From: Enorma burkinafasonensis
GTDB lineage: Bacteria; Actinomycetota; Coriobacteriia; Coriobacteriales; Coriobacteriaceae
Reading direction: 5' to 3'
NCBI RefSeq assembly: GCF_902150035.1
Contig: NZ_LR597501.1
Coordinates: 124,001 to 188,000 of the forward strand
DNA length: 64,000 bases
Made by a program: the position numbers and the translations under genes. This document shows positions 14,050-15,825 of the stretch, in pieces. The notes below the pieces were generated by a model. That model worked only from the letters and a program-made list of their open reading frames with translations, made no database searches and was not told where the DNA came from. How positions within the stretch are numbered: the stretch's first letter is position 1; each line of letters opens with the position of its first letter.

Positions 14050-14126
14050 GTCCCATTAGCTCAGTGGATTAGAGCGTCTGCCTCCGGAGCAGAAGGTCAC
14101 AGGTTCGAATCCTGCATGGGACACCA
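14050..14126 (+). tRNA. tRNA-Arg (anticodon CCG)
   Basis: The cloverleaf folds cleanly. The acceptor GTCCCAT pairs with ATGGGAC. The D arm is GCTC/GAGC, and the anticodon stem TCTGC/GCAGA encloses loop CTCCGGA (anticodon CCG, reading CGG). The T arm has loop TTCGAAT; its outermost 49-65 pair is A-C rather than Watson-Crick. The CCA end is encoded. It has its own promoter and terminator and is flanked downstream by an AT-rich repeat region. Confidence 0.97.
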
Positions 14127-14315: not shown

Positions 14316-14582
14316 TATCGTACGTTTTCTTCATTTCTCGAGTGCCCTCGTAAGAATAATGCAGACTTTTATAGAATTCTGCATTATTCTTACGACTGCC
14401 TTCACGTTCTGCATTCTTTGTACGATACATTTTCTTGTTTTGCATATTCTGTACGATAGTATTTTCTGGTTTGCATTTTTCTTACGAAGAAGAACTTCAT
14501 TTTGCAGAAATAGTTCGATAGATAATTTCTATATTGCATTCTTCTTACGATAGTAAACCTATTCGGAAGAAGCCGTACGATA
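14316..14582. repeat. Helically phased array of nine degenerate 18-bp elements
   Basis: In an otherwise gene-free, AT-rich stretch the core TGCATTCTTCTTACGATA recurs in degenerate form. Seven forward copies begin at about 14380, 14410, 14441, 14472, 14503, 14535 and 14565, and two inverted copies lie at 14316-14333 and 14346-14363. Spacings are 30-32 bp, close to three helical turns, so all cores face the same side of the DNA. The most conserved parts are TGCAT and TACGATA; the 12-13 bp between cores is A/T-rich and variable. The repeats are too divergent, and the spacers too short and similar, for CRISPR. No gene is supported here on either strand. Function is unknown; it looks like a cooperative protein-binding array. 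Confidence 0.85.
14348..14395. repeat. Perfect 18-bp inverted repeat within the array
   Basis: TCGTAAGAATAATGCAGA (14348-14365) is repeated in perfect inverse at 14378-14395 across a 12-bp AT-rich spacer. It is the point where the array's copies change orientation from inverted to direct. There is no T-run, so it does not look like a terminator. Confidence 0.9.
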
Positions 14583-14793
14583 ACGCCTCGTATTGCGTCT
14601 GTGGACGCCCTCGATCCACGCGCGTCGGCAACGGAAAGCTGGCCGAAACGACGACCCAGACGATACGTTCCGGCGCAGTTGTTTCGATGCGGTTCCGTAA
14701 GCCCGTTCCTGCCGGGCGTTACCCCCAAGTACGCTAAACTTCTGCCTATCTGAACGCATCGCTGATGAAACCGGCATGGCCGCAGGAGGGCAC
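14583..14793 (+). promoter_or_regulatory. Leader and probable promoter region of the aromatic operon
   Basis: This is the only space between the repeat array and aroF, so the operon's promoter should lie here or inside the array. A possible -10, TAAACT (14735-14740), lies 54 bases before the aroF start, without a convincing -35. No terminator-antiterminator pair or leader peptide was found. Confidence 0.3.
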
Positions 14794-15825
14794 ATGATCG
14801 CGATACTCAAGAAGAGCGCCGACGAGCGCGCCGTAAACCAGCTCGTCGGCTGGATCGAGGGCAAGGGCCTGCAGGCCCACGTGAGCCACGGAGAGAACGA
14901 GCTCATCATCGGCCTGGTGGGCGACACCACCAAGATCGACCCCTTCCTCCTCGAGAGCATGGACATCGTCGAGCGGGTCCAGCGCGTCTCGGAGCCCTTC
15001 AAGAAGGCGAACCGCAAGTTCCACCCTGCCGACTCGGTCGTGGACTGCGGGAACGGCGTGCTTCTGGGCGGCGGCCACTTCCAGGTGATCGCCGGGCCCT
15101 GTTCCGTCGAGGGCGATAACCTCATCCGCATCGCGCGACGCGTGCATGAGGCCGGCGCGACGATGCTGCGCGGCGGCGCGTACAAGCCGCGCACGAGCCC
15201 GTACGCCTACCAGGGCATGGGCCCTGCCGGCCTCGACCTGCTCTGCGAGGCCCGCGCCGAGCTGGGCATGCCCATCGTGACCGAGATCATGGACGCGCGC
15301 GACGTGCCCGTCTTCCTCGACAAGAAAATCGACGTCATGCAGATCGGCGCCCGCAACGCCCAGAACTTCACCCTGCTCAAGGAGGTCGGCAAGACCCAGA
15401 CCCCCGTGCTGCTCAAGCGCGGCATGTCCGGCACCATCGACGAGCTCCTCATGGCCGCCGAGTACATCATGAGCGAGGGCAACGACAACGTGATCCTCTG
15501 CGAGCGCGGCATCCGAACCTTCGAGACGCGCACCAGGAACACCTTCGACCTCAACGCCGTGCCGGTGCTGCACTACCTCTCGCACCTGCCCGTCGTCGCG
15601 GACCCCAGCCATGCGACGGGCTATACCCGCTACGTCGCGCCGATGGCGCTCGCGGCGACCGCGGCCGGCGCCGACGGCCTCGAGATCGAGGTCCACGACG
15701 ACCCCAGCCGCGCCTGGTCCGACGGCGCGCAGGCGCTCACGCCCGACATGTTCGACGACCTCATGCGGCGCATCGCGCTCATCCGCGACGCGATCCGCCC
15801 CGCCGCTAGCGAGGCCGGGCGATGA
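14794..15825 (+). CDS. aroF: 3-deoxy-7-phosphoheptulonate synthase (DAHP synthase, type I beta)
   Basis: The enzyme condenses phosphoenolpyruvate with erythrose 4-phosphate, the entry step of aromatic biosynthesis. A ferredoxin-like regulatory domain (about residues 1-70), as in Thermotoga DAHP synthase, precedes the TIM barrel. Active-site motifs seen are AGPCSVEG (metal-binding Cys), YKPRTSPYAYQG, KRGMSGTIDE, ERGIRTFE and DPSHATG. The ATG at 14794 has GGAGGG 3-4 bases upstream; an in-frame ATG six codons earlier lacks one. The N-terminal domain suggests feedback by tyrosine or phenylalanine (inference). It opens the operon and overlaps tyrA by ATGA. Confidence 0.96.
   Translation: MIAILKKSADERAVNQLVGWIEGKGLQAHVSHGENELIIGLVGDTTKIDPFLLESMDIVERVQRVSEPFKKANRKFHPADSVVDCGNGVLLGGGHFQVIAGPCSVEGDNLIRIARRVHEAGATMLRGGAYKPRTSPYAYQGMGPAGLDLLCEARAELGMPIVTEIMDARDVPVFLDKKIDVMQIGARNAQNFTLLKEVGKTQTPVLLKRGMSGTIDELLMAAEYIMSEGNDNVILCERGIRTFETRTRNTFDLNAVPVLHYLSHLPVVADPSHATGYTRYVAPMALAATAAGADGLEIEVHDDPSRAWSDGAQALTPDMFDDLMRRIALIRDAIRPAASEAGR

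Follow-up and report, generated by a model that had tools for sequence, protein, structure and literature searches.

What does an array of short, evenly phased repeats do between a tRNA gene and an aromatic-biosynthesis operon? The question is raised by a 64,000-nucleotide stretch of the Enorma burkinafasonensis genome (the window; contig NZ_LR597501.1, positions 124,001 to 188,000), in which nine 18-bp cores, TGCA-N7-TACGATA, lie in the gap between tRNA-Arg(CCG) and aroF. The best reading of the data is that the array is a solo copy of a genome-wide, gene-linked, lineage-specific repeat family. The arrays of this family are probably the cognate sites of an AbiEi-like protein with a winged helix and a PD-(D/E)XK-type domain, together forming an element that resembles the REPtron of other bacteria.

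A phased array and its family in the Enorma genome

The nine cores span 14316-14582, two of them inverted and then seven direct, as an earlier note on this DNA had described. The spacing of 30 to 32 bp given there holds inside each arm; across the inversion the step is 34 bp, which the note had missed. There were 23 matching 14-mers at lags of 30 to 32, whereas 2000 dinucleotide shuffles gave 0.08 on average and never more than 8; a chance origin of the array was rejected. The ninth core has a weak first half and scores 15.5, versus 21 to 33 for the remaining cores. From 69.5% over the window and 66% and 61% in the two flanks, the G+C content falls to 34% in the array, and no convincing gene was found inside the array; the description of an AT-rich, gene-free island beside tRNA-Arg was accurate. 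The suggestion that helically phased sites would suit an oligomerizing DNA-binding protein is also supported.

Other classes of repeat were considered. A minisatellite was rejected, and so was a clustered regularly interspaced short palindromic repeat (CRISPR) locus, since the cores are degenerate and occur in both orientations and the spacers are common to several loci; the earlier note had excluded both. Known structured RNA was rejected as well, with no Rfam match on the arrays and only tRNA and raiA RNA near them.

A genome-wide weight-matrix scan had been proposed in the earlier note, and the core proved far commoner than chance: the 2.23-Mb genome has 19 exact matches to it, whereas the reversed pattern has none. 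Arrays were located by using the core pattern, a second pattern, and a weight matrix. Eight were found: that of the window (contig C13) and those at C16:195712, C25:56766, C25:81122, C25:134173, C31:84248, C38:4702, and C38:6043. All eight have minus-strand cores on the left and plus-strand cores on the right, a pitch of 30 to 32 bp, and a central distance of 34, and they occupy gaps adjoining unrelated genes. Among their 13-bp spacers, 25 pairs from different loci are identical at 10 or more of 13 positions, versus 0.12 expected, which suggests either that units were copied or that a second motif (CCASTGG) is conserved.

Two of the arrays bracket an orphan AbiEi-like winged-helix gene on contig C38 (L025:4911-6029), and the upstream dyad lies about 60 bp before its plausible start codon. 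The product matched PADLOC AbiEi models with an E value of 2e-8 (2e-11 was also obtained with these models) and scored far under the NCBIfam cut-off. In an alignment of 36 homologs, E206, D240, E254, D256, and K260 in the C-terminal part are near-invariant. This E..D..ExDG..K arrangement is the pattern of a PD-(D/E)XK-type site, and the product is a putative nuclease. AlphaFold models were confident (predicted local distance difference test values of 90.7 and 90.5), and a Foldseek search with the C-terminal domain returned the R2 retrotransposon endonuclease, TnsA, and I-Bth0305I near the top; a sequence search of the PDB gave no match. Neither an AbiEii toxin gene beside the AbiEi-like gene nor a second operon gene was seen at L025, where aspS is the neighbor and the contig ends about 180 bp beyond the upstream array, or at L147, where the neighbors are ATPase and dehydrogenase-like genes.

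Gene-linked cores in relatives

The core of the window is absent from the 66 other genomes of the family. A scan of viral contigs gave 0 matches, and 257 Gb of genome contigs gave 2, about the chance expectation for 18 fixed bases. Phage searches yielded none, and plasmid searches yielded one, in a Collinsella record of chromosome size. AbiEi-like homologs occur in 62 of the 67 family genomes, mostly at one to six per genome. Segments of 600 bp were repeat positive in 58 of 143 cases beside homologs versus 5 of 201 in distant DNA (p=2e-20). The pairing of the gene with repeats is strongly supported.

The earlier note had also proposed comparing this intergenic region across relatives. The core is not conserved there; the 31-bp pitch is kept in G007, a genome of another genus, where the same tRNA-Arg/aroF gap holds an unrelated core (GCTTAGGTGACAAGATCGCGGGCAAC). 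This second core is dispersed elsewhere in G007 and lies beside an AbiEi-like gene of that genome (copies were counted by the fixed core; an iterated weight matrix drifted to codon periodicity). It was not found in relatives, except for one match in G058 that was taken as chance. In G055, an AbiEi-like gene itself sits in the tRNA-Arg/aroF gap, with cores on both sides. Other inverted repeats in this gap are found at L060:1239-1310 (G001, 26-bp arms) and L068:2626-2705 (G030, arms of about 20 bp); these hairpins matched nothing at the AbiEi loci retrieved from those genomes.

Core type follows gene type in Collinsella (genus g3). One ortholog group always has CGGAAA-N6-CCC cores that alternate every 33/29 bp, and another has TCTnTAACA cores that alternate every 34/46 bp; the correspondence holds in 9 of 9 and 9 of 9 cases, with 0 of 70 at other homologs. 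Both types are dispersed, since each of 24 Collinsella-like genomes contains 14 to 38 matches to the CGGAAA pattern and 26 to 68 TGTAACA dyads, each with a control of 0. In two of the genomes that are without the 333-aa AbiEi-like gene, CGGAAA arrays stand on either side of an ATPase-like gene, whose product has 463 aa in G010 (L144:2053-3805 in G010 and L253:3573-5325 in G013).

Pairs of empty and filled sites show that the gene is a cassette delimited by cores. In G010, the 379-aa type of the gene lies inside dyads, and the corresponding place in G009 holds a single dyad; the junction coincides with a core end, and a core copy of about 20 bp stands at both ends of the cassette. The pair G012/G010 shows the same for the 333-aa type, the cassette of which is delimited by a 55-bp core pair. 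When orthologous solo arrays of G009 and G010 are compared, fixed core positions are 3.2% divergent, versus 21% for variable core positions and 15.7% for spacers (p=8e-10 and 2e-8), a contrast that is somewhat inflated by the picking of sites by a core match in at least one species.

The pairing extends to another family, in which G212 has a 55-bp palindrome with sharp boundaries in 35 copies. Two copies directly flank its AbiEi-like gene, and the variable base is mirrored on both arms in 34 of the 35. A raiA RNA (Rfam RF03072, 145.9 bits) lies near this unit of gene and palindromes, at L219:677-905. In a further actinobacterial family (f34/g54; G111, G148, and G169, 5.6 to 6.2 Mb), there are 10 to 12 remote homologs per genome, and no comparable repeats were found at the four loci L195, L196, L197, and L213.

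Mechanism, related systems, and alternatives

AbiEi and Rv2827c bind inverted repeats and autoregulate (PMC7319586), and the binding of AbiEi is cooperative (PMC7319586, PMC3985639). By analogy, we infer that the C38 protein would bind the cores via its N-terminal winged helix, the putative AbiEi-like DNA-binding domain. A dimer may seed on the central inverted pair of cores, with more protein copies stacking outward every three or so helical turns on one DNA face, and the position of the gene inside its own array makes autoregulation probable. The likeliest route of spread would be that DNA is nicked or cut at cores and then copied from one core to another by recombination, the nuclease domain helping to copy cores and cassette from site to site. 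Taken on its own, nuclease-driven spread of the arrays is a possibility that we hold with some reserve. We propose, tentatively, a REPIN-like replicator of the Coriobacteriales, in which a protein of AbiEi-type winged helix and PD-(D/E)XK domain recognizes phased cores, lives in its own array, and drives the spread and upkeep of dozens of lineage-specific solo arrays; it would be convergent with the repetitive extragenic palindrome (REP) and REP-associated tyrosine transposase (RAYT) system and unrelated to it. The suggestion in the earlier note that the array belongs to a mobile-element-like binding region is supported.

The REPtron (REP/REPIN plus RAYT/TnpA-REP; PMC2817692, PMC3116915, PMC8266576) has RAYT genes that are flanked by REPs, and the two coevolve and are dispersed (PMC2817692). 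Here, too, the gene has its own repeats on both sides, inverted relative to each other, and the repeats are dispersed outside genes, lineage specific, and apparently coevolving. They also form a persistent intragenomic population, in arrays of alternating orientation like those of bacterial interspersed mosaic elements. In contrast, the enzyme here combines an AbiEi-like winged helix with a PD-(D/E)XK-type domain and is not a Y1 HUH transposase, and the arrays are helically phased at 31 bp, with up to about 15 cores. Most cores neither form hairpins nor bear a GTAG/CGTC tag: the Enorma, G007, and Collinsella-like cores are singly non-palindromic, and the G212 palindrome is without such a tag. 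Because the defining transposase and the tagged hairpin are absent, the unit of array and gene is not a member of the REPtron; the array family would work like the REPtron and shares no component with it.

The AbiE type IV toxin-antitoxin system (AbiEi/Rv2827c; PMC7319586, PMC3985639) likewise has inverted repeats upstream of its own gene, and its AbiEi domain has a putative counterpart in the N-terminal part of the present proteins. The present genes differ in having no adjacent AbiEii toxin gene at the loci examined, in their extra C-terminal nuclease-like domain, and in having sites that are amplified into arrays and dispersed. The PD-(D/E)XK nucleases of mobile elements (TnsA, the R2 endonuclease, and I-Bth0305I) are similar, weakly (best E value of 5e-3), in predicted C-terminal fold and in the acidic/lysine pattern, whereas here this domain is joined to an AbiEi-like domain and is the cognate of repeat arrays. 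A Pfam scan of the associated gene gave no resemblance to Rep or ParB. Iteron, parS, and sopC-type arrays are phased direct repeats suited to cooperative protein loading, as are those described here; unlike them, the present arrays have many chromosomal copies, a fixed central inversion, and lineage-specific cores. In the open-access literature, to which the search was confined, we found no description of the gene-plus-repeats arrangement and nothing joining AbiEi to DUF559 or to Coriobacteriia.

Several observations weigh against reading the arrays as the sites of a REPtron-like AbiEi-type element. Of 72 homolog loci, 39 pass the repeat threshold. The C38-type protein has no Pfam match (E<=5), and the Foldseek E values are weak. 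The second conserved motif, rather than copying, could explain the sharing of spacers, and target-site duplications were looked for and none were found. The direction of change between empty and filled sites is unpolarized, and deletion between flanking cores would look alike. Of the 24 Collinsella-like genomes with CGGAAA arrays, 13 keep them in the absence of the listed 333-aa gene; therefore, another protein may maintain them. Finally, selection on the cores is as compatible with a host function as with a selfish one.

A host function is the alternative that survives best, and it is unlikely. The arrays would then be sites for nucleoid organization, insulation, or a regulon, used by an AbiEi-like regulator of little or no mobility whose nuclease domain has another role. 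Strict phasing, cores conserved relative to spacers, and the orthologous positions of some arrays in two species are consistent with this. It fits poorly with cores that are wholly different between species and ortholog groups, with a cassette that is present or absent at arrays, with wide copy-number differences, and with the 35 near-identical palindromes of G212, which fall into mirrored subfamilies.

The 13 genomes without the 333-aa gene also bring in an improbable alternative, namely that the arrays serve some other, conserved host protein and that AbiEi-like genes merely insert there. However, the AbiEi ortholog groups have cores of their own, and the pairing is found across several genera and two families. 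Genomes without the gene also average fewer CGGAAA sites (20.1 versus 31.2), a difference mostly due to the flanks of the gene itself.

More improbable still is that the gene is a homing endonuclease gene and the solo arrays are its targets. A gene that interrupts its own array with empty sites elsewhere, core repeats at both ends in empty/filled pairs, and a nuclease-domain fold nearest to R2, TnsA, and I-Bth0305I all resemble such an element. Against this, there is one gene copy to 8 to 68 solo sites per genome, the targets are intergenic repeats and not a conserved host gene, and selection on solo cores is unexpected for homing targets.

That the array acts locally, as a multi-site operator of the aro operon or of the tRNA gene, is scarcely credible: the array lies just upstream of aroF, as the earlier note had stressed in suggesting control of the operon, but this is unsupported because the seven other arrays adjoin unrelated genes and relatives keep aroF without this array.

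If the REPIN-like replicator is real, a gene-plus-dispersed-repeat system would have evolved in bacteria a second time, independently, and would be common among a major group of gut inhabitants: each Collinsella genome carries tens of sites, which belong to at least two types. The system would provide natural replicates, in the form of matched protein and core pairs, for studying how DNA recognition and the recognized sites evolve together. It would also give a handle on what keeps short repeat populations alive and on what orphan AbiEi-like proteins do, as well as a ready test of the REPIN idea that repeat populations benefit the host.

Coordinates and further repeats in the Enorma genome

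Table 1. Cores of the window array and the conserved genes on either side
Feature	Position	Strand	Basis or remark
Solo phased array, 2 inverted + 7 direct 18-bp cores, 30-32 bp pitch	14316..14582	.	Pattern and shuffle test
Core 1 (TGAAGAAAACGTACGATA)	14316..14333	-	
Central dyad: inner minus-strand core 14346-14363, inner plus-strand core 14380-14397	14346..14397	.	Start distance 34
Core 4 (TGCATTCTTTGTACGATA)	14410..14427	+	
Core 5 (TGCATATTCTGTACGATA)	14441..14458	+	
Core 6 (TGCATTTTTCTTACGAAG)	14472..14489	+	
Core 7 (TGCAGAAATAGTTCGATA)	14503..14520	+	
Core 8 (TGCATTCTTCTTACGATA)	14535..14552	+	
Core 9 (GGAAGAAGCCGTACGATA)	14565..14582	+	Weak first half
tRNA-Arg(CCG), conserved neighbor outside the element	14050..14126	+	ARAGORN
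3-Deoxy-D-arabino-heptulosonate 7-phosphate synthase (aroF-like), first aromatic-operon gene, conserved neighbor outside the element	14776..15825	+	Open reading frame start at 14776/14794

Dyads also lie beside the other AbiEi-like paralogs of the Enorma genome, on contigs C22 and C25; their sequences are different, and their arms measure 56, 35, and 15 nt (L124:4279-4391, L125:2579-2649, and L126:2344-2374). A preference of arrays for convergent gene pairs, seen in this genome, failed in the Collinsella-like genomes. An isolated core of the window type (TGCAGAAACGTTACGATG) stands without visible neighbors at G000:C22:101824-101841. In several arrays of the genome, a TATATA-rich stretch lies exactly between the inner cores (L022:8139-8156, L024:8358-8374, and L025:4781-4797).
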